From Mariniflexile fucanivorans (GTDB lineage Bacteria > Bacteroidota > Bacteroidia > Flavobacteriales > Flavobacteriaceae), in assembly GCF_004341235.1 (NCBI RefSeq), contig NZ_SLUP01000003.1, positions 248,001 through 312,000 on the forward strand: a stretch of 64,000 nucleotides of DNA. The letters run 5' to 3'. The translations under genes and the position numbers were made by a program. The notes under the pieces were generated by a model that made no database searches, had not been told where the DNA came from, and saw only the letters and a program-made list of their open reading frames with translations. Of the stretch, positions 7,842 through 52,937 are shown one piece after another; position 1 is the first letter of the stretch, and each line of letters starts with the position of its first letter.

Positions 7842-10421
7842 TTATAGTTTTACATTGAAATTCTCCATAGTGTCAATGATTTTTGTTTGAAACTTTTTCG
7901 TTCCAATTCCTTCTAAAGAAAAACTATCCAATTCCAATTTTCCTGAAAGTACGGTAATTTCCGCTTTCTTATTTTTTACTTCACAAGTTCCGTAGCTATA
8001 ACCATTGCTCCAAAAATAAGTTCCAGGTTTTGAGGTAAACCTCATCGATTTTTCAACGGCTGAATAATGAAACTCTGTGGTAGCCAAAATGCCTGCCCAA
8101 GCCATCATGCTTCTGGCGTAATGATGACCTGCCTCGGCTTCGTCAAACGGACTTCTTTTCTTCCCGTCATAACGGTCTCTGATGTTGCGGATACATAATA
8201 AACCATCTTCCGTTAAACCTTCTTGTAACATCCCTATGGCCGCAGTATATTCAAAACCAGTCATCACTTCGGTATAATATGGGAATGGTTTTTCAGGTCT
8301 TTCATTTGGATAGGCAGCCATCAATAAAGCAGACTCGTCGCCTAAAGCATACGAACGATGAAAATTGGCATGAGAGGTCATGTTTTCAACATAATTGTAT
8401 TTCATGATTGATTCCAAGGTTTTCTTGATGTTTTCTTCTTTTGCTAAATAGCCTAAGCCTACAATATGGGAGAAAACTTGGCCTACCAACTGATCGACCA
8501 ATACGCCTTTTCCCAATTGAAAATCAGGTGATGTGAGGTCTATCGCATTGGCATCATCTGCTGCTCCCATAAGTGATTCTGCTACATTATCTTTCGACAT
8601 GGGTGGTTGAATGTGTTGCTCGTAGTATTCACCGTTGAATAGATTTTTGTCCATCCATTCAGAGCCTTGATCGAACAAACTTTGGCAGGTTTTAGCGAAT
8701 TTTTTGTCGCCTAAATAATTAGCCATTTCTTCCGATGCTTTAAGGGCTCCAACATACCAGAATCCCATTTGAGGATTAGGGCCGAAATATTCTACATCCA
8801 TGGTATTGTGTTGCGAACCTTCCATGACGCCATTTTTATCGGCATCCCATCCTCCGGGTATCCAGCAAAATTCCAATGATTTTTTCACTTTAGGCCAGTG
8901 TTTTTTCAGAAAGGCATCATCTCCAGATAATTGCCATTCGCGATAAAATTTCATGATACTTCCCATTTGTCCGTCGGCGGCTGCTTTCCCCCATTTTTGT
9001 CCTTCTTCCAAAGGCAAATACACTCTAAAGCTCATCAAACCTTGGTCATCGGTGGCATAACCATACTCGACATCTCGCATGGTTTTAGCTAATTCCCCGA
9101 ACAAAAAAGCCGTGGTTTGCTCATAATTCCAAACGTGAGTGCAAGAACCAAAACACGACCCATGTGTATCAAAAACGCCTTCCCAACCTAATAATTGACC
9201 TGTTTTAATACGAAATGCCAGTTGGGTTCTTAAGTGTGCCAAATTAAAAAGCGCCGATTCTTTAATTTCCTCAGGCATATCACTTTTAATAAGTGCATTT
9301 ACGAATGTTTTTGTGTTTTTTTCCAATTCTTCAAGACGTGGCAATGTTTTTGAAATCACATCCCATGAATCGGTGTATTTAGTGGTATAATAATTTCCAA
9401 CAGTGGCAGTAATTAACTTTTGAAATCCTGGTTTATCCCAAGTTTGTCTGTTTGGAAAATGCCAACTAATTAAAAATTTAAAATTCTTTTCTTCACCAGC
9501 TTTTAAAGTTGTTTTTACAGCTAAAGAACCCATTGGTGCATTTGCCTCCTCATTTACTCTTTTTTCTAACACACCATCTGCACTAAAATCGTCCCAGAAA
9601 TCGAGTCGTTTTTTATCCCATCGGCTGGTTTTAGGTTGCCAATCGGTACGATAGCTTGTATGGCCTTCATTCAACGATACGAAGCTCATGGTTCCCCATT
9701 GCTCACTTTCGGGGTCTACGCCATTGGTTGTATAATGGATGCCTTTTACGCCATTTTCTTCTCGAATCGTATTGACATTATTTATGGTTTTTCCTCGTGT
9801 GCCATCAAAACCAATAAAGTTTTGAATGGTTCCCGCCAATGAAATAGTAATATCCTTTTTACTGGTATTTTTCACTGTATAATTTAGGATTGCCGTGGGA
9901 ATGCTACTATCGTCAATGTTTCCTGGAATAAGCGGGTTGTATGCCCCAAGTACAACCTCCACCGGAAGGTTTTCATCACTTAAATACACTTGACCAAAGG
10001 GATAAGCGGTTTTAAAAGACGCAGAGCCAAAACGAGGCAAACCATGATTGTTTGAAGTGGCTCCCCAATCGCCTTCGTAATACGATTCATCGGGTGGTCC
10101 CTCGAGTAAACGAGTTTGTTTTTTACCATTTTCATCTTCCATATAAATGGCGAAAAAAGGTCCTTTTACTTTTACTGGACCCCAATTTTCCAAAGTGGGA
10201 TTAAAGCCTTTGGCAGGACGGTTCATAATTTCCCAATCCTCTAAAGAACCCCTTCCCGTCAAGGAAATGGTCCCAGTACCAATACCACCAACGGGCATCT
10301 TTATTTTTTGGATGTGATTTTGGTCGTAAGTTTTTAGTACGGGCCAATCATTGCTTATTGTTTGAGCAAAAGCTATAACACTTATAAACTGAATGATTAC
10401 CGCTAACTTTATGTTTTTCAT
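7842..10421 (-). CDS. GH116-family glycosyl hydrolase (copy 1 of 3)
   Basis: An 859-residue exported enzyme (signal peptide about residues 1-20, ending IAFAQ), as expected for the GBA2-like GH116 family: an N-terminal beta-sandwich domain (about 40-380) with MPVGGIGTGTISL near residue 42, then an alpha/alpha catalytic domain (about 390-820). By comparison with GBA2, Asp542 in QHNTMDVEYFGPNPQM is the likely acid/base; I did not assign the nucleophile. Known GH116 members are beta-glucosidases, beta-xylosidases and related enzymes, so activity here is open. It is closest to the 18060-20612 copy (shared DQNHI, IGTGTISL, DWEIM-RPAKG, WNYEQT). It sits directly upstream of the 6411 sulfatase. There is no T9SS tail, so a periplasmic location is inferred. 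Confidence 0.88.
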   Translation of the reverse strand: MKNIKLAVIIQFISVIAFAQTISNDWPVLKTYDQNHIQKIKMPVGGIGTGTISLTGRGSLEDWEIMNRPAKGFNPTLENWGPVKVKGPFFAIYMEDENGKKQTRLLEGPPDESYYEGDWGATSNNHGLPRFGSASFKTAYPFGQVYLSDENLPVEVVLGAYNPLIPGNIDDSSIPTAILNYTVKNTSKKDITISLAGTIQNFIGFDGTRGKTINNVNTIREENGVKGIHYTTNGVDPESEQWGTMSFVSLNEGHTSYRTDWQPKTSRWDKKRLDFWDDFSADGVLEKRVNEEANAPMGSLAVKTTLKAGEEKNFKFLISWHFPNRQTWDKPGFQKLITATVGNYYTTKYTDSWDVISKTLPRLEELEKNTKTFVNALIKSDMPEEIKESALFNLAHLRTQLAFRIKTGQLLGWEGVFDTHGSCFGSCTHVWNYEQTTAFLFGELAKTMRDVEYGYATDDQGLMSFRVYLPLEEGQKWGKAAADGQMGSIMKFYREWQLSGDDAFLKKHWPKVKKSLEFCWIPGGWDADKNGVMEGSQHNTMDVEYFGPNPQMGFWYVGALKASEEMANYLGDKKFAKTCQSLFDQGSEWMDKNLFNGEYYEQHIQPPMSKDNVAESLMGAADDANAIDLTSPDFQLGKGVLVDQLVGQVFSHIVGLGYLAKEENIKKTLESIMKYNYVENMTSHANFHRSYALGDESALLMAAYPNERPEKPFPYYTEVMTGFEYTAAIGMLQEGLTEDGLLCIRNIRDRYDGKKRSPFDEAEAGHHYARSMMAWAGILATTEFHYSAVEKSMRFTSKPGTYFWSNGYSYGTCEVKNKKAEITVLSGKLELDSFSLEGIGTKKFQTKIIDTMENFNVKL

Positions 10422-45521: not shown

Positions 45522-47114
45522 TTAAGACTTCAACTGGAACAGTTGTCTGACCTCAAGATGGATCCTTTCAAAGTTCGCCTGTATTTCTGCATCATTATAG
45601 CGATGGATTGGTGATGGTAATGTCCTGTTAATATTCGGCATTTTAAACTGAACCTTTCGATCCTTGCCATCCGCAAAAGATATAAATTCTCCTTCCTTCA
45701 ACCTAAAGAACACATCGGAACGTATTTTACTCACTTCTTTCTCCCCTGTACTGATCCTGGAATCAAAGTCTAGGCTATTTTGGCTCTTGCTGATGGTGGT
45801 TGTCGGTTTCTTGACGATCTCAAAGAAACGTTCATAATATTTGGCGGTGTCGGGGTCGTTCGCCTTGCCAAAGAACTGGTAGGACAGATTGCTCAAGATG
45901 GCACGGCTTGCCTTATCGCCATACATCATGTCATTTTGGGTCTTGTCCTGCATCACATACACCGTTGAAATATCATAGCTCCGTAAGGTTGCAGGAATGC
46001 GGTGCATATTGAGAAGCCTAATGGTAGGCGCTTCCTCGATAAGGATAAAGGCCGATTCTCGATGTCTTACGCTCATCTGTTTGGTCATGGTATGGATAAT
46101 AGTGGCAATCACTGGGGAGTAGGCCGTTTCAAATTTGGGATTGTTGACTATGGACACCACTGCTGGATTTTTGGGGTTATTGATATCCAAGGGTACTTCA
46201 TCTGCTGAGAGCGCCATAAAGATGCGTTGGGTGCTGATTTTCTTGAGGGCATTCGCCAATGTGCTCATCACCCCTGCCGTTTGGCGTTCAGAATCCCTTC
46301 CTGAGATAAAGGCATTAGCCATGGCTTTAGAGGTGTAATCGGAACTCAAAAAATCAATGAGGCTATCGGTATCCAAATATTGATAGGTAGCAATCAAATG
46401 GGGAAGCGTACAATAATTAGGATGGGTGGTTTTGAGTTTCCAGATAAGCCCACCCAAAAGACCTTCCACGGCATCATTAAAGAATTTGGAAGAACCAGCT
46501 GCGTTGGACTCCCGTTGTTCCAACAGGTTTTCCAAAAGTACCCGAGATACTTCATTGACGCTTTCCTCGTCTTCCATATACCTTGGGGCAATGGGGTTCA
46601 CCTTGGCATAGATGTCATCAAAGGAAATGATATGGAAAGGACGGTTGGATTCCTTATACAGTGGGTACGCCATTTCCGTGATCTCAAAATGTTTGTAATC
46701 ATGGATAAGACCGCAAAATTGGTACCGCTGGAAATGCCTTAACATATTGTAGACCACCGATTCGGTCTTGCCACTGCCAGCGGATCCTATAATGGAGATG
46801 CCCCTACGGATGTTCTGGAGTTTTATGCTGCCCTGTTTTACCTGGAGCTTTATTGCATACTTACGTTCCTTTTTCGGTTGTTCCCAAACGGGGACTATCA
46901 AAACATATAGGGCGTTCTGGATGAATACGAGAGGCAATAGCCATTGTCCCAATAGGGCCATGAGCTTATCGGGATGCATGAGATAGAGCAAAGCCCCCAT
47001 CATCAGCAACAATACGGCACTTAGTCCATAGGCGAAGCGCAAATATCGAAAACCCATTGCTATCAAAGTGGTCAGGGCAACATAGATACATATTATCAAA
47101 ACGGGTGTTGTCAT
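45522..47114 (-). CDS. TraG/VirD4-like mobilisation coupling protein (MobC type)
   Basis: A 530-residue inner-membrane ATPase that would bring the relaxase-bound DNA to a conjugation channel. Two or three N-terminal membrane segments lie within residues 1-76. Walker A is GSAGSGKT at 110-117, and the ATPase core includes GLIHDYKHFEI, NAAGSSKFFNDAVEGLLG and FILIEEAPTIRLLN (Walker B region). The family usually runs about 500-670 residues, so this is full-length. It lies 11 bases downstream of the relaxase gene and forms a btgA-btgB-coupling protein operon. Sequence in this operon looks visibly GC-richer than the sugar genes on either side, suggesting foreign origin. Confidence 0.9.
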   Translation of the reverse strand: MTTPVLIICIYVALTTLIAMGFRYLRFAYGLSAVLLLMMGALLYLMHPDKLMALLGQWLLPLVFIQNALYVLIVPVWEQPKKERKYAIKLQVKQGSIKLQNIRRGISIIGSAGSGKTESVVYNMLRHFQRYQFCGLIHDYKHFEITEMAYPLYKESNRPFHIISFDDIYAKVNPIAPRYMEDEESVNEVSRVLLENLLEQRESNAAGSSKFFNDAVEGLLGGLIWKLKTTHPNYCTLPHLIATYQYLDTDSLIDFLSSDYTSKAMANAFISGRDSERQTAGVMSTLANALKKISTQRIFMALSADEVPLDINNPKNPAVVSIVNNPKFETAYSPVIATIIHTMTKQMSVRHRESAFILIEEAPTIRLLNMHRIPATLRSYDISTVYVMQDKTQNDMMYGDKASRAILSNLSYQFFGKANDPDTAKYYERFFEIVKKPTTTISKSQNSLDFDSRISTGEKEVSKIRSDVFFRLKEGEFISFADGKDRKVQFKMPNINRTLPSPIHRYNDAEIQANFERIHLEVRQLFQLKS

Positions 47115-47125
47115 AGGATTGTTTT

Positions 47126-48151
47126 TTAAATGCCGATGGAGCTTGCGTTCTTTGCCACATCGATGGTTCTTTTTAATTGTTTGAAGGCTTTCAGTGCCAA
47201 TTGCACCTGGTTGGTGGGGATGTTCAGGTTGGGGACGTGCATGCCCGATTTGCCCATCATCTTAAAGGCGGCACTCTTTTCATTGGTTGGGAGTGCCATC
47301 AGGTGTGCAAAGAACTTGTATGGTTCTTTGTTGTACATTTTATGTGCCGTATAACTTTCCACAAAGTTCCGCTCATATTTGAAGAGCTTGTCAAAGGTCT
47401 TTTCTGCCTTTTCAAAAAACTGGTCGCGTTCAAAGCCTCGCTTTACTAAGCTGCCATTCAAAATGACCTCGGAGGCTTTGTGGGAACTCCCTGGGGAAAG
47501 ACTGAGCGTGTTGGTCACATCCTTGCGGCTCACAATGATATGGACGTGGGTCTGGAGTCCCTGCTTTTTCATTCCCTGCACGACCATCTGGCCGTCCACA
47601 TGGTGTGGGGCTTCTGCCTTGAGCTGTTCGATGGTTTTTTGTATGGCTTGGCTGTTGCCCTCCAACTCCCCGCTTCTGATTTTCGCCAGGTCATGTTCCA
47701 ATTTTACAATTTGTGACCTAAAGGGTTGGTTCTCCTTTATTTCCCTATCAAAGCCTTTATAGGTACGTTCGTACTCTATCTTGGCATAGTATTTTATGCT
47801 GTCCACCGATACGGGCTTGTCCCTATAAAAGGAACTGGCATAGTCCTTCATAGTTTCCCTGACATACTGCCGAAGTTTTGCTGGGTCATTACCGATGTGC
47901 TTGAGTTCCCTTTGGCTTGGACTGATGGTCAAGGAATAGAACTTAGGCTCGTTTTTTCTGAGCTTGGCGGTATTACCGTCGATGTCCTTGACGATGTGCT
48001 TGGCGGATACTTGGTCATTGTGCTGGTCAAAAAAGTGCTCTTGCTGCTCTGGAACCTTGTCCCTGTTTTCCTTTTCCAGATAATCCACAAAATCGCCGGA
48101 GCTCTGTGAAAAGGTGGTGTCCATGTGTTGTTTGGTGATTGAGATGTACAT
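47126..48151 (-). CDS. btgB: Relaxase, BtgB / DUF5712-like
   Basis: A 341-residue mobilisation protein of the Bacteroidota BtgB group. It is predicted to nick the element at oriT and stay bound to the 5' end. FYSLTISPSQRELKHIG lies in the N-terminal half, and QTHVHIIVSRKD near residue 200 contains the His-x-His metal-binding pattern of relaxases. A Tyr in the N-terminal region (Tyr2 in MYISITKQ or a later one) would be the nucleophile; I cannot fix which. The C-terminal helical part contains MYNKEPYKFFAHLM. It is 2 bases downstream of btgA, so the two are surely co-transcribed. Confidence 0.85.
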   Translation of the reverse strand: MYISITKQHMDTTFSQSSGDFVDYLEKENRDKVPEQQEHFFDQHNDQVSAKHIVKDIDGNTAKLRKNEPKFYSLTISPSQRELKHIGNDPAKLRQYVRETMKDYASSFYRDKPVSVDSIKYYAKIEYERTYKGFDREIKENQPFRSQIVKLEHDLAKIRSGELEGNSQAIQKTIEQLKAEAPHHVDGQMVVQGMKKQGLQTHVHIIVSRKDVTNTLSLSPGSSHKASEVILNGSLVKRGFERDQFFEKAEKTFDKLFKYERNFVESYTAHKMYNKEPYKFFAHLMALPTNEKSAAFKMMGKSGMHVPNLNIPTNQVQLALKAFKQLKRTIDVAKNASSIGI

Positions 48152-48153
48152 AA

Positions 48154-48711
48154 TTAACTGTTTTTGATTTTCTCTTTAAGAGCCTCATAGTCTTCCAAGG
48201 TCATGTCCAATTGAAGTTTGGGCTTGCCAAAACTGCTTTTTACAATATGTACCTTAGAAAACAGGAGATCCTCAAATTGTTGTTTGGTTTCTTTTAAATC
48301 CCTTTGGAGGGTGTTCTTTTCCTTTCTCAGTTCGATGGCCTCCAATGACGTGGCAAAAAAAGGATCTTTGGTGGTCTTGCCCCTTTGTTTGACCTCCACT
48401 AAACGGGGCTGCTTTTGTTTTGGTGGCGTTTGTTCAAACAGTAATTGGAGCATCGCCGTGGTCGGTTGTGTCTGGTGCTTTTCGATATCCTTCACAATGG
48501 CAACCAAGGCATTGATGCGCTTTTTAATATTGGCTTCCATGCCCCGCATGTTCGGTCCCAGATCGGTCATGGGCGACAGTTGGTAGGTATCAAAAAAGTC
48601 CATCATATGGTTCAGGGTCTCGGTATAGGAGCCACCGACTTTGGCACAAAAACCCTTGAACCGTTCTACGGTGTCCTTATGGAAATTGATACTTAAAAAT
48701 CGGCGTTTCAT
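48154..48711 (-). CDS. btgA: Mobilisation accessory protein, BtgA-like
   Basis: A 185-residue DNA-binding accessory protein, first gene of the mobilisation operon. The N-terminus (RRFLSINFHKDTVERFKGF, then ETLNHMMDFFDTY) suggests a ribbon-helix-helix-like or related small DNA-binding fold. The middle and end are coiled-coil (ELRKEKNTLQRDLKETKQQ, about 130-155). BtgA and BtgB proteins are known from Bacteroides mobilizable elements, where BtgA helps the relaxase at oriT. The oriT-like inverted repeat begins 27 bases upstream of this gene. Confidence 0.82.
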   Translation of the reverse strand: MKRRFLSINFHKDTVERFKGFCAKVGGSYTETLNHMMDFFDTYQLSPMTDLGPNMRGMEANIKKRINALVAIVKDIEKHQTQPTTAMLQLLFEQTPPKQKQPRLVEVKQRGKTTKDPFFATSLEAIELRKEKNTLQRDLKETKQQFEDLLFSKVHIVKSSFGKPKLQLDMTLEDYEALKEKIKNS

Positions 48712-48791: not shown

Positions 48792-48917
48792 TTTGGTGTT
48801 TGTCCTTTGGTACAAACATGATTTAATATGCTTTAAATAGCTGTAAATCAGTTATTTATAAAAACATAAAATAACGCAATGCCGCTTTAGCGCATTGCCC
48901 TCTTGCTATACCTTTTC

Positions 48918-48933
48918 GTCCCGCTAGCGGGAC
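48918..48933. repeat. Perfect 16-bp palindrome
   Basis: GTCCCGCTAGCGGGAC is fully self-complementary and flanked by TTTTC and AAAATTTTT. It may be a protein-binding site in the transfer origin region or the stem of a small hairpin. Function is not established. Confidence 0.6.
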
Positions 48934-49190: not shown

Positions 49191-49388
49191 TTAAATATTA
49201 AAAACGTATTGGTAGGAATAAAGGTTTTTAATGGCTTCCTCTTCCAGTATGGTGTTATAATCCAAATGCTGTTTTTCAGCATAGGATTTAAGGTCATTCC
49301 CAAATTTTTGTTCCACATCGATTTTGGAATTTTGGAGCAAACGGTCTTGGGTCTCTTCGTCCAGATTGTTGTAATTCAAATAAATCAT
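49191..49388 (-). CDS. Small conserved-type hypothetical protein of the mobilizable region
   Basis: A 65-residue, mainly helical acidic protein (NNLDEETQDRLLQNSKIDVE, ending LYSYQYVFNI). I do not recognise a named domain. It is tightly placed 19 bases after the DUF6876-like gene, in the same direction, and followed by a terminator, which supports it as a real gene. Its role on the element is unknown. Confidence 0.6.
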   Translation of the reverse strand: MIYLNYNNLDEETQDRLLQNSKIDVEQKFGNDLKSYAEKQHLDYNTILEEEAIKNLYSYQYVFNI

Positions 49389-49407: not shown

Positions 49408-49788
49408 TCAATATTCGCTCGGTAGCATCAGCGTATTGTTCACAAAGAACAACCGCAGTTCATCCAATGGAAAATCGGTCACGTTATAGCGGTGTGTTTG
49501 TAATATGGTGTCGTTGCCGTCGCCATAGGTTATGATGGCTTCACAGCCTTTCTCTTTGCTCTCGGGTTCTGAAAGGCGTTTAAAATCGATGGTTATGAAG
49601 TGGCTCTTGTCCTTAAGGCTCTTGGCTATCACGGAAGCATCGGTTACCAGCCAAAAGCAGCCTGCTTTTTCCGCTAAATAGTGGATGCCGTCCGTAAATC
49701 GGGTCTGTATCAAAGGCAATTGAAAAAATTGCTCGGTGCCATGAAATTGTTGCAGGCTTTCCTGTAATGTTATAATTTTGCTGTTCAT
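49408..49788 (-). CDS. DUF6876-like protein
   Basis: A 126-residue cytoplasmic protein. The pattern FHGTEQFFQLPLIQTRFTDGIHYLAEKAGCFWLVTDA and the closing FPLDELRLFFVNNTLMLPSEY match what I know as the DUF6876 group from Bacteroidota conjugative or mobilizable elements (moderate certainty). No function is known; the fold looks alpha/beta. It lies between ssb (95 bases upstream) and the 65-residue gene. Confidence 0.75.
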   Translation of the reverse strand: MNSKIITLQESLQQFHGTEQFFQLPLIQTRFTDGIHYLAEKAGCFWLVTDASVIAKSLKDKSHFITIDFKRLSEPESKEKGCEAIITYGDGNDTILQTHRYNVTDFPLDELRLFFVNNTLMLPSEY

Positions 49789-49883: not shown

Positions 49884-50222
49884 CTATTGATTTCCTCCCA
49901 ACAATAGGATTTCACCCACTACCACCTCGGTCACATAGCGTTTTGTGCCGTCCCTGTCCTCGTAACTTCTTGAGGTCAATTTGCCCTCAATGGCAATTTC
50001 CTTGCCCTTGGTTACGTACTTGTCAATAATGTCTGCGGTCTTGCCCCATGCCACGATACTATGCCAATCGGTATTGGTCTGTTTTTCGCCCTTGGCATTT
50101 TTGTAGCTCTCATTGGTTGCCAATGAAAAACGAACAAGGTTCTTACCGCTCTCCAAATTGGTCATTACGGGGTCTGCCCCTACATGTCCAATCAACTGTA
50201 CTTTGTTTCTTAATGTACTCAT
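49884..50222 (-). CDS. ssb: Single-stranded DNA-binding protein
   Basis: A 112-residue OB-fold SSB (NKVQLIGHVGADP, VRFSLATNE, TDWHSIVAWGKTADII, GKEIAIEGKLTSRSY). The frame is open to 50267, but Met at 50222 is the family start (MSTLRNK). It lacks the usual long acidic C-terminal tail and ends VGEILLLGGNQ, as do many element-encoded SSBs in this phylum. It would protect transferred single strands. A strongly structured non-coding region begins 54 bases upstream. Confidence 0.93.
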   Translation of the reverse strand: MSTLRNKVQLIGHVGADPVMTNLESGKNLVRFSLATNESYKNAKGEKQTNTDWHSIVAWGKTADIIDKYVTKGKEIAIEGKLTSRSYEDRDGTKRYVTEVVVGEILLLGGNQ

Positions 50223-50275
50223 GATATTAATTATTAAATGGTTTATATTTCCCCTATTGGGTGGCAAACGGATGC

Positions 50276-50618
50276 CATTTTAAGGGGCGTTTTGTTCAAT
50301 TTCCCTCGTGAAACGAACCAATGGATGGCGTGGGTTTTGTCAAGGCTTTTAAGGAACAAATCAGGAGGGTCTGCGACGTAGCAAAATCCTTGGATTTTCA
50401 AGGATGTGGAAACCTTATTTTTTTTTAAAACTTTGCATGGGCTTGACAAGTTCCACGAGGGCATTAGCAATACTTTAAAACCTGTTTGCATTGGGGCGTA
50501 CAGGCAGTTAAGCGCCATAAGCAAATAAGGTTTTATTAGTAGTGCTTTTGCGCTGCCTGTTTTTCGATGCCCCGAAAAACAAACAAAGGCGCCATCCATT
50601 ATAAAACCCCTTAAAATG
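50276..50618. ncRNA. Candidate large structured RNA (strand uncertain)
   Basis: Several nested or branched pairings can be read directly: CATTTTAAGGGG (50276-50287) with CCCCTTAAAATG (50607-50618); AATGGATGGCG (50320-50330) with CGCCATCCATT (50590-50600); TGTTTG with CAAACA (50580-50585); GGGGC with GCCCC; CAGGCAG (50501-50507) with CTGCCTG (50553-50559). Local hairpins CGTTT/AAACG (50288-50315) and ATCCTTG/CAAGGAT (50386-50405) lie on the left side. This layered arrangement is what a folded RNA of about 340 nt would show. It could be a leader of ssb or a plus-strand transcript. I do not recognise a known class. Confidence 0.5.
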
Positions 50619-50626
50619 TTCTAGGA

Positions 50627-50708
50627 CCGACCCCGTGTTTTTAGGCAGTATCCAGCAAAGTCCCGGGAAGGCTTTGCCGATACTGCCGTTAAGAAAATAT
50701 GGGGTCGG
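50627..50708. repeat. Three-tier nested hairpin
   Basis: CCGACCCC (50627-50634) pairs with GGGGTCGG (50701-50708); inside it GGCAGTATC (50644-50652) pairs with GATACTGCC (50679-50687); inside that GCAAAG (50655-50660) pairs with CTTTGC (50672-50677). All three are perfect. It directly adjoins the candidate RNA and may be part of it. Confidence 0.65.
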
Positions 50709-50774
50709 GATTTCCGATGTCTAGTTATAAGAACCGATAAGTTTGATGGTTGTTCTGTCCTGGCGGACTCCATT

Positions 50775-50850
50775 CACCTGTTTTGCCTGTAAAGAAGTGT
50801 CCTTTCCAGCGAAGCGGAAAGGTTCAACGCAGTGGAAAGTAAAACAGGTG
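50775..50850. repeat. Two-tier nested hairpin
   Basis: CACCTGTTTT (50775-50784) pairs with AAAACAGGTG (50841-50850), and inside it CCTTTCC (50801-50807) pairs with GGAAAGG (50816-50822). It immediately precedes repeat copy 1. The second copy of that repeat is also preceded by a hairpin (52779-52812). Confidence 0.6.
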
Positions 50851-50854
50851 GATG

Positions 50855-50925
50855 GTGTCCAAGACTTTTCAATGAAGCGCTTTTCCCGAAATGGAGCTTT
50901 TCGCGGCATGCAGGGGAATGTGCTG
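50855..50925. repeat. Repeated element copy 1 (71 bp), right next to the parB terminator
   Basis: This 71-base block, from GTGTCCAAGAC to GGGGAATGTGCTG, recurs at 52845-52914 in the same orientation with only a few differences. It encodes PRKAPFREKRFI-like peptides on the minus strand in both copies, but no gene start or context supports translation. Confidence 0.75.
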
Positions 50926-50989: not shown

Positions 50990-52558
50990 TTATGATTTAA
51001 CCGAATTCTTGAGTTTCGTAACCCGTTCTTTCCGTCGGCTTATTCTTTTATCGGCAATGGCTTTTTGTTCCTTTTCGAAATCCTCGATTGGAATACTACC
51101 GAAACTTTCAGCTAGACTTCTTAATGCCATGGCTTCGCTGTATGTTGGTAAGGATGATTTAAAGGAATCATATCCTACATTATTGATGATGATGGCCATG
51201 TCATCTTTTGTCAGTTCCATAAGACGTTTCAGGAATCCCGCAGTACCCTCTTTTTTATATTTGTCCATATCCAAAAGCTTACCATAATGTTCCTTTTTTG
51301 GCCAACTCAGTGCATTCCATACTATCAATCTGTTTACTTTTTCTGTGGCATCACAATATTTGTGTTTTCCTAACACAGTTAATTCTTCAGTTTCACACAT
51401 GGCTTCAATGATACGTTTATGCACCTTTTCACCATCCAGTTCCAACATACGTTTTGCTCTCGTATTGATCTTTTCAATTTGCGCATCCACACTTTCCTTG
51501 CTTTTCGGATCCAAAGCTTTTACTTCTTGCTTTTTGGTCAATCGAATAGAAACGTATTTTCCATGGTCATAACCATTAACCCAGAATCCCCTGATTTTGT
51601 TTTTCCGTTCATCTTTTCCATGAATCGTTTCAAAATCATCATATTCTACCAGAACATTTATATCTAACTTTTTCAGTTTTTCAGACAGATCCTCATCGAT
51701 AGCTTGATGCTTGGATTTGATTAAATGGACATTTTCGGCATTGTTGATGATGCTCTCAATTTCGTTTTCAATGTGTTTTTCCGTTTTCTCACCGAAACAC
51801 ACCTTATCAAAACATCGGTCTTCTTCCTTTACATCAGGAAACAGGGAACAATTTGCTCCTGAGCGCTTCGGACAATTGATACAGGCTCCTGCCTTTTTAA
51901 CTAGGTTTTCATCCAGTGGGTTAAAAATCGCTTTTGATATGAGCGCGGTGATGTTGGAGTCAATGTAGCTTTGTAACTGTTGGGCAGATTTAATGCCGCC
52001 ACTCCAATCACTTGCATTTTGAGCCACTTCTTTTTGGTATTTCTTATCAAGGCGCGCTATTATCAATGCTTTTGAAAGATTGATGTCATTTCTGAAAAAC
52101 AGTTTTTTCCATTCGGCATTTAGATTATTCAAGCTCAGTCTTTGCAGGATGAATTTTTCGGACTTGGCGATTTTGGCAGCTATATCTTCAATTGTGTATT
52201 CACCCTTATCAATCATCAGTCTAAACGTTTCAGCTTCTCGCAAGGGATGCACGTCTTCCCTTTCCAGGTTTTCGATGATCTGTGCTTCCAAGGCTTCTTG
52301 GTCATTCAAGTCCTTAATTTGAACTGGCACCAATTTCAAATCTATGAGCTTACAGGCTCTTAATCGTCTTTCTCCGCAGACGAGTTCATACCCTTTGTCT
52401 TTTGGTCTGACCAGTAACGGTTGAAGCAGTCCATGTTCTTTGATACTTTCAGCAAGTTCCTGAATGGATTGCTCATCGAAATCACTTCTCGGATTGGTAT
52501 TACTGGTTGTAATGTCAACCAATGCCACCTCTTTTAAATGTTCGAAAATTGTTTCCAT
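50990..52558 (-). CDS. parB: ParB/RepB/Spo0J-family protein
   Basis: A 522-residue DNA-binding protein. The N-terminal ParB domain (about 12-105) has the CTP-binding/catalytic-type GERR motif at 62-65 and the IIENLERED region; a KorB-like HTH domain follows (about 110-210, YTIEDIAAKIAKSEKFILQRL). The middle carries a Cys cluster (ACINCPKRSGANCSLF, then CFDKVCF) that might bind metal. The C-terminal half is charged and ends KERVTKLKNSVKS. No ParA lies next to it. On mobile elements such ParB proteins act in stabilisation or regulation. It is flanked on both sides by copies of the 70-bp repeat, which might include its binding sites (speculative). Confidence 0.9.
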   Translation of the reverse strand: METIFEHLKEVALVDITTSNTNPRSDFDEQSIQELAESIKEHGLLQPLLVRPKDKGYELVCGERRLRACKLIDLKLVPVQIKDLNDQEALEAQIIENLEREDVHPLREAETFRLMIDKGEYTIEDIAAKIAKSEKFILQRLSLNNLNAEWKKLFFRNDINLSKALIIARLDKKYQKEVAQNASDWSGGIKSAQQLQSYIDSNITALISKAIFNPLDENLVKKAGACINCPKRSGANCSLFPDVKEEDRCFDKVCFGEKTEKHIENEIESIINNAENVHLIKSKHQAIDEDLSEKLKKLDINVLVEYDDFETIHGKDERKNKIRGFWVNGYDHGKYVSIRLTKKQEVKALDPKSKESVDAQIEKINTRAKRMLELDGEKVHKRIIEAMCETEELTVLGKHKYCDATEKVNRLIVWNALSWPKKEHYGKLLDMDKYKKEGTAGFLKRLMELTKDDMAIIINNVGYDSFKSSLPTYSEAMALRSLAESFGSIPIEDFEKEQKAIADKRISRRKERVTKLKNSVKS

Positions 52559-52844
52559 AATTTTATAGTTTTAGATTAAACAATATGTTTACGGAACCCA
52601 AACGGAAGACAAAATTTTGGAGCGGAAAGGAAACGTATAAAAAGTGAGGTACGAACGGCTTTATGCCGTCCCTTTTCCGAGAAATATTTTGCGAGTTTAC
52701 CTTTGTACCTATATTGTTATAGATATACTCTCCTTTTAAGCGGACGCTATTTCAAAGTTTAATATTGGGAATGGAGTGTTCCTGCTCCCGAAGTTTCGGG
52801 ACTAAACAGGAAAAAGTGAAGTATAAACCTAAAACTTTGGGATT

Positions 52845-52914
52845 GTGTCCAAGATTTTTAATGAAGCGCTTTTCCCGAAATGGAGCTTTTCGCGGAATGC
52901 AGGGGAATGTGCTG
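52845..52914. repeat. Repeated element copy 2 (70 bp), upstream of parB
   Basis: Near-identical to 50855-50925 (one base shorter, with a few changes in the stretch after GTGTCCAAGA). Like copy 1 it has a hairpin before it and a terminator after it, so the larger unit hairpin-repeat-terminator seems duplicated. Confidence 0.75.
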
Positions 52915-52937
52915 AATGACTTTTGAAAGAAAAATAT

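Follow-up and report, generated by a model that had tools for sequence, protein, structure and literature searches.

A 343-nt structured element at positions 50276-50618 on the plus strand of the window (the whole 64,000-nucleotide stretch of DNA analysed here), which we call unit I, is probably a single-strand DNA initiation site on the transferred strand, in the leading region of a mobilizable element. Its ends are sharp. It is recognised by its fold, its copies, covariation and a G-T bias, and consists of a 12-bp terminal stem (P1) that closes a long branched interior (P2, P3-P5, P6 and P7). All the pairings listed by a first-pass annotation of the sequence, which had described at least seven pairings that nest and branch, several of them perfect over 7-12 bases, were recovered at their coordinates, including perfect stems of 12 bp and 11 bp. 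In the sequence and the alignments, P1 joins its 5' arm CATTTTAAGGGG (50276-50287) to its 3' arm CCCCTTAAAATG (50607-50618) by 12 perfect pairs. P2 joins AATGGATGGCG (50320-50330) to CGCCATCCATT (50590-50600) by 11 perfect pairs and, as helix 4 of the 72-row alignment, shows double changes in 7 of 10 pairs, while the hairpin P7 (GTTTTTCG...CGAAAAAC, 50559-50580, helix 16) is paired in 99.8% of cells over the 72 rows.

Folded as RNA, the plus strand of unit I reached -124 kcal/mol (z -6.9), a value equalled by 0 of 100 shuffles, and under DNA parameters it gave z -7.7; the minus strand folds with z -6.1. As a control, we folded the 400-nt upstream regions of other genes in related loci (n=100), obtaining a mean z of -1.4 with 6 regions at or below -5, against z of -2.3 to -9.5 for copies of unit I placed in the same 400-nt frame (n=12), 6 of which were at or below -5. 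Unit I is therefore clearly shifted relative to other upstream regions, although some of those fold back strongly as well.

A profile search detected 128 copies of unit I in 127 of 128 loci, some places having been fetched twice among these loci, once unnamed and once named. The 118 full-length copies correspond to 96 distinct sequences of 334-365 nt. Nearly all carriers are Flavobacteriaceae, many of the genera being among the first 40 of the 213 taxa of the family list, and the copies lie in mobile DNA of mostly marine bacteria. Within the family, 54 of 249 genomes matched with an E-value of at most 0.01 and 39, the window's own included, with an E-value below 1e-20, many of the latter matches spanning query positions 16-358, that is, positions 50277-50619 of the window. 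Across the phylum, 7 of 395 genomes matched, all from the same family and again including the window's own. A degenerate pattern searched against named genomes yielded at least 117 stretches, of which 80 were used as loci; the genera among the pattern matches listed we take to be Flavobacteriaceae, with the exceptions of two MAGs, one titled Flavobacteriales and one Saprospirales.

The blastn searches against plasmid and phage collections (query 50270-50720 for the plasmids, a collection that includes F) and the exact-pattern search of viral contigs returned no match to unit I. At the gathering score, neither the window nor the unit I copies of four further loci matched an Rfam family, and relaxed thresholds over unit I produced only miRNA and snoRNA noise. 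Unit I thus has no Rfam family, in agreement with its earlier description as possibly undescribed, for which an Rfam search had been suggested as a check; our literature searches retrieved no paper recognisably describing it, which is no proof of absence. In an Arenibacter genome, about 630 nt separate a copy of unit I from a Flavo-1 RNA (RF01705; L121:1622-1701) on its right.

We built alignments of 29 and 72 unit I sequences, and both support one fold. Using RNAalifold on the 29 sequences, we obtained 95 pairs, with compensatory double changes in 42 of them. To avoid circularity, we also predicted the fold from the window sequence alone and projected it onto the 72-row alignment, where double changes occurred in 59 of 122 pairs (41.7 in shuffles) and in 484 cells (180.6 in shuffles), and where 82.7% of cells could pair, compared with 78.3% in shuffles and 38-54% for slid versions of the fold. 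The stems thus show compensatory changes among homologues, the analysis that the first-pass annotation had proposed as a check. Helices 3, 8-10, 13 and 14 of the window fold are paired in just 49-72% of cells. Unit I further shows invariant loop bases and conserved wobble pairs, and variable insertions, some of them palindromic, sit at its hairpin tips; in three loci (L057, L064 and L104) these are palindromic CCTGCC...GGCAGG insertions. The only open frame noted earlier, 118 aa on the minus strand, crosses unit I in the window, as a protein-coding gene that happens to fold would require; a Pfam search with this frame gave no match, 71 of the 72 rows break it, and the variation follows the pairs. 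We accordingly regard unit I as non-coding, consistent with the earlier remark that the frame lacks recognisable protein features, and consider the coding explanation almost certainly wrong.

To compare the strands, we counted G-T and A-C combinations at paired positions. Over the 93 Watson-Crick pairs of the window that are present in the folds of both strands, 71 homologues gave 481 G-T against 155 A-C, and over the 101 pairs shared by the two consensus folds, 28 representatives gave 114 against 23. Unpaired columns lean the opposite way (244:318), so that the G-T excess in paired columns is not a mutation bias. Using a symmetric filter, the window fold gave 288 G-T against 83 A-C, with 9 pairs fixed as G-T and 0 as A-C, and the plus consensus fold 285 against 42. 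The minus consensus fold (72 rows) dissents, with a G-T:A-C ratio of 42:65 over 33 pairs and a further two pairs fixed as A-C. For the 15 pairs found in both 72-row consensus folds, the ratio was only 21:14. The difference in energy between the plus and minus strands of unit I is within what composition gives (z -0.7) and hence no proof of strand use, and relatives of Frpo, taken as a yardstick for the G-T:A-C ratio (six sequences with few changes), gave an outcome that varied with the strand folded. As a whole, the pair counts point to the plus strand of unit I, in the direction that a U-G pair had already hinted at in the first-pass annotation and against the dissent of the minus consensus fold; these statistics cannot separate an RNA from a single strand of DNA.

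The surroundings of unit I confirm that it lies on a mobilizable element. To its left, all on the minus strand, we identified a coupling protein of the TraG/VirD4 type (45522-47114; PF02534, with a MobC-like match to NF041326 at 178 bits, below the cut-off of 900), a MobB-family relaxase (DUF5712; 47126-48151; NF041495 with an E-value of 1.5e-114, and PF18976), a BfmA/BtgA-type mobilization protein (48154-48711; NF041200), a 65-aa ORF conserved in many related loci (orf65; 49191-49388), a DUF6876 protein (49408-49788; PF21781) and ssb (49884-50222; PF00436 with an E-value of 4.1e-34, and TIGR00621). To its right lies a gene for a ParB-domain protein on the minus strand (50990-52558; PF02195, PF17762). 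The ssb gene reads away from unit I, with its start codon 53 nt off, and the position just upstream of ssb that was reported for the window is general: an outward-reading ssb match on the minus strand lies at most 130 nt to the left of 87 of the 95 distinct copies that could be assessed. Wherever a match to the relaxase of the window was found (63 copies), it was on the left side and on the minus strand (63/63). Around 26 representatives, ORFs centred less than 1 kb to the left of unit I were on the minus strand in 49 of 49 cases, and those 1-2 kb to the right in 23 of 29. In two loci (L053 and L144), two successive ssb-like matches stand beside unit I, about 480 and 50-65 nt away.

This arrangement could suggest that unit I is a cis-acting leader of the ssb mRNA, read from the minus strand and autoregulatory or riboswitch-like, given that it lies directly upstream of ssb in most copies and that the minus strand folds too (z -6.1). 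We consider such a leader very improbable, as the pair counts favour the plus strand (481:155) and 8 of the 95 copies have no adjoining ssb.

Four of these eight copies stand beside another minus-strand gene. In L076, a RadC gene takes the place of ssb; in L089 and L127, a 72-aa ORF is followed by a DUF6908-type gene (Pfam was run on those of L089); and L077 carries unit I twice (8664-9006 and 9988-10332), once upstream of ssb and once upstream of a 180-aa ORF for which Pfam gave no match. In the other four (L114, L135, L146 and L147), unit I is flanked by an oriT-like stretch on one side and a serine recombinase on the other. Within about 600 nt on the ssb side we found no recognised coding gene, the minus-strand frames being of 28-47 aa only. 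Three of them (L114, L135 and L147) have, in the same orientation, a relaxase of a second type (PF03432, run on that of L114). The serine recombinase and a small ORF lie to the right of unit I in these four loci, and AGCTAG-rich palindromes to the left. The left flanks of the eight exceptions have nothing in common with those of the 87 ssb copies beyond matches of 18-23 nt; the right flank is shared, as unit II (described below), in L076, L077, L089 and L127 and not in the other four. Unit I is therefore not tied to ssb alone, and the four copies with no recognised gene on the ssb side mean that promotion of ssb cannot be its sole role and favour priming as at least part of that role.

An oriT-like region, made up of a hairpin, a CTCTTGCTAT motif and a second hairpin, lies at 48876-48933 on the plus strand, between the mobilization gene and orf65 and 1.4 kb from unit I; its function as oriT is putative. 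In 39 aligned loci, the interval from the BfmA-type gene to orf65 conserves a hairpin, CTTGCT a few nucleotides later, and a second hairpin. By eye, the four loci with a serine recombinase (L114, L135, L146 and L147) show a similar hairpin-CTTGCT-hairpin layout, so that the likely oriT layout is alike in MobB-type and PF03432-type elements. As a general rule, the hairpin recognised by a relaxase lies on the strand that is cut, on the 5' side of the nick. By this rule, the plus strand would be the one transferred and unit I would lie in the leading region, with the caveat that hairpins flank the CTTGCT motif on both sides.

The gene content provides independent support for the leading region. 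Within 3.5 kb to the right of the 26 representatives, 64 of 91 ORFs are on the minus strand, and the 60 minus-strand ORFs of 100 aa or more had as their largest clusters the DUF932 family (7 members, with Pfam run on one) and ParB (5 members). On the F plasmid, ssb and ParB genes are found downstream of Frpo2, and where this sequence occurs a second time, a gene for a DUF932 protein comes after it. The T strand preceding the F ssb gene folds likewise, with z of -5.0 to -6.7. Genes for SSB and anti-defence proteins of leading regions have been described on the transferred strand together with Frpo promoters (PMC11541004), and deletion of Frpo1 or Frpo2 is reported to have abolished early expression of the downstream genes (PMC9849209).

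From this context we propose the following course of events. The relaxase would nick oriT and the plus strand would enter the recipient, 5' end first. While single-stranded, unit I would fold into a closed branched structure, the fold and its covariation having been computed, and the molecule presumably being DNA. The RNA polymerase of the host or a priming enzyme would recognise the folded strand and start RNA synthesis, and by analogy with Frpo and sso the RNA would run toward oriT through ssb and its neighbours, such that SSB would be made before the second strand, and the same RNA could also prime that second strand. Once the DNA had become double-stranded, the fold of unit I and the start site would vanish.

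Taking the oriT, the transfer direction and the transferred strand of the unit I element to be as proposed above, unit I resembles the Frpo/ssi sequences of F-like and IncI plasmids (Frpo1 and Frpo2) in being a template-strand foldback of several hundred nucleotides immediately upstream of ssb, with ParB and DUF932 genes near. It differs from them in having no sequence match by blastn against plasmids including F, in being branched, in belonging to another phylum and in being known here from sequence alone. Frpo is described by -10 and -35 boxes that are reconstituted by a stem. In unit I such boxes are not conserved: sigma-70-like boxes scoring at least 10 occurred inside 2 of 72 sequences on the plus strand and 1 of 72 on the minus strand, compared with 14 and 8 in shuffles, in a scan that took contiguous boxes, and the Bacteroidota-type promoter consensus was absent or unconserved in unit I. 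This lack of conserved promoter boxes is the main weakness of our proposal and bars us from filing unit I as an Frpo.

Further structured units extend to the right of unit I. The boundaries 50276-50618 given in the first-pass annotation hold for unit I itself and leave out these neighbours, at 50620-50718 and 50762-50925. Unit II (50620-50718, plus strand) is a long hairpin directly to the right of unit I, at -51.3 kcal/mol (z -6.7). It was detected in 98 of the 113 copies whose flank was long enough, a count that includes places fetched more than once, and adjoins unit I directly in most copies, though not in L114, L135, L146 and L147. Unit III/IV, found by a family scan of the loci, consists of two further hairpins over about 180 nt (50762-50925, plus strand) and is repeated in the window, on the plus strand, upstream of the ParB gene (52740-52916, right end approximate). 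In the scanned loci, all 58 units of the III/IV family are on the plus strand (58/58), 44 of them beside unit I. The remaining 14 have a minus-strand ORF to the left in 13 cases (within 185 nt in 8) and to the right in 12, and hence sit between minus-strand genes. In L043, L053, L058 and others, unit III/IV repeats occur between leading-type genes, at times in tandem. Units II and III/IV are probably accessory or parallel sites like unit I.

In sister elements, an unrelated foldback occupies the place of unit I. We fetched 15 stretches around MobB matches, in which unit I occurred in 0 and a recognisable ssb in 6. In all six of the latter (L250, L251, L253, L254, L255 and L264), the 400 nt upstream of ssb contain a foldback of about 260 nt, which we call type B, with z of -5.5 to -8.9 on the template strand and weaker values on the coding strand in each, a difference that is partly due to composition. 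L250, L251 and L264 come from the window's own genome, and one of the six from another family of the same class. Type B foldbacks are mutually related (70-92%), are undetected by the unit I profile and, in two loci, gave no match in Rfam. Type B shares with unit I a strong template-strand fold upstream of ssb in MobB elements; it is one long hairpin of about 260 nt, whereas unit I is branched. In L251, identity to the window is 95-98% for the relaxase, mobilization and coupling proteins and 75% for SSB; as ssb and the foldback both differ, the block of ssb and foldback has been exchanged whole, and not the foldback alone. The fixed place and orientation of unit I with respect to the relaxase, together with this unrelated foldback in sister elements, are easier to reconcile with a folded single strand of DNA than with an RNA. 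The structured RNA proposed in the first-pass annotation is partly supported: the structure is real, conserved, covarying and non-coding and favours the plus strand, and its identity as RNA is the less likely part.

The main rival to a single-strand initiation site, which we judge unlikely, is that unit I encodes a large structured non-coding RNA. This RNA would be made from the plus strand in the direction away from ssb and would act in trans, either in mobilization or on the host. The size of unit I, its branching, its invariant loop bases, its wobble pairs and the G-T preference of the plus strand all fit such an RNA, as do the four copies in which a promoter would have no recognised gene to drive on the ssb side. 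There is also a precedent in Salmonella Genomic Island 1, which is reported to need a self-encoded sgm-sRNA, encoded between a mob gene and oriT, so that it too has a non-coding factor beside oriT and mob genes (PMC9299015); in that account sgm-sRNA is a shown transcript with a mapped promoter region, in contrast to unit I, for which our scans found no conserved promoter. In the window, a sigma-70-like site lies on the plus strand at 50221-50249, just left of unit I (9 of 12), as an RNA gene would need, but sites found by the same rule lie to the left of just 10 of 95 copies, compared with 21.9 in shuffles, and are hence rarer than in shuffles. The Bacteroidota-type site was found for 1 of 26 copies with one mismatch allowed, an absence that is weak evidence because the consensus detects control genes weakly (36 of 200, versus 24.6 in shuffles). 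We found no terminator at the right end of unit I in the window, and left flanks compared across contexts share only the short matches given above. The orientation fixed relative to the relaxase in all 63 cases and the unrelated foldback in its place would be unexpected for a specific RNA.

A single-strand site could also act purely as an origin, in which a primase, a primosome or RNA polymerase primes the second strand with no role toward ssb. The known sso are orientation-specific hairpins near conjugation genes, and sso1 of ICEBs1 resembles unit I, as plasmid sso do, in being a strand-specific hairpin structure, here on an integrative conjugative element (PMC4595007). For the sso of pBAA1, a changed sequence with the structure kept is reported to have still worked (PMC4595007), and this precedence of structure over sequence fits an unrelated replacement such as type B. 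A pure origin would also explain the four copies with no recognised gene on the ssb side. It would leave unexplained why 87 of 95 copies have an outward-reading ssb no more than 130 nt away and why the second copy in L077 stands beside another minus-strand gene; in contrast to sso, unit I is for the most part associated with outward-reading leading genes. We therefore think this narrower role improbable, and retain a single-strand initiation site that serves the leading genes and may also prime the second strand.

If this proposal is true, unit I would be a single-strand initiation site with a sequence and a branched fold of its own. We consider it possible, though only tentatively so, that it represents either a new class of large, ornate RNA that mobilizable elements carry and require for transfer or a single-strand DNA machine whose branched architecture is itself read by polymerase or primase without canonical promoter boxes. 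Both are compatible with the structural and phylogenetic evidence, and either one, if true, would be new as a class. The unit I family offers defined sequences, a strand, neighbours and a ready alignment for a new family. Published work on early expression from the entering single strand, as represented by PMC9849209 and PMC11541004, concerns mainly enterobacterial plasmids. The unit I family and its unrelated replacement would suggest that this early-expression strategy has more than one origin and can do without the known promoter boxes.
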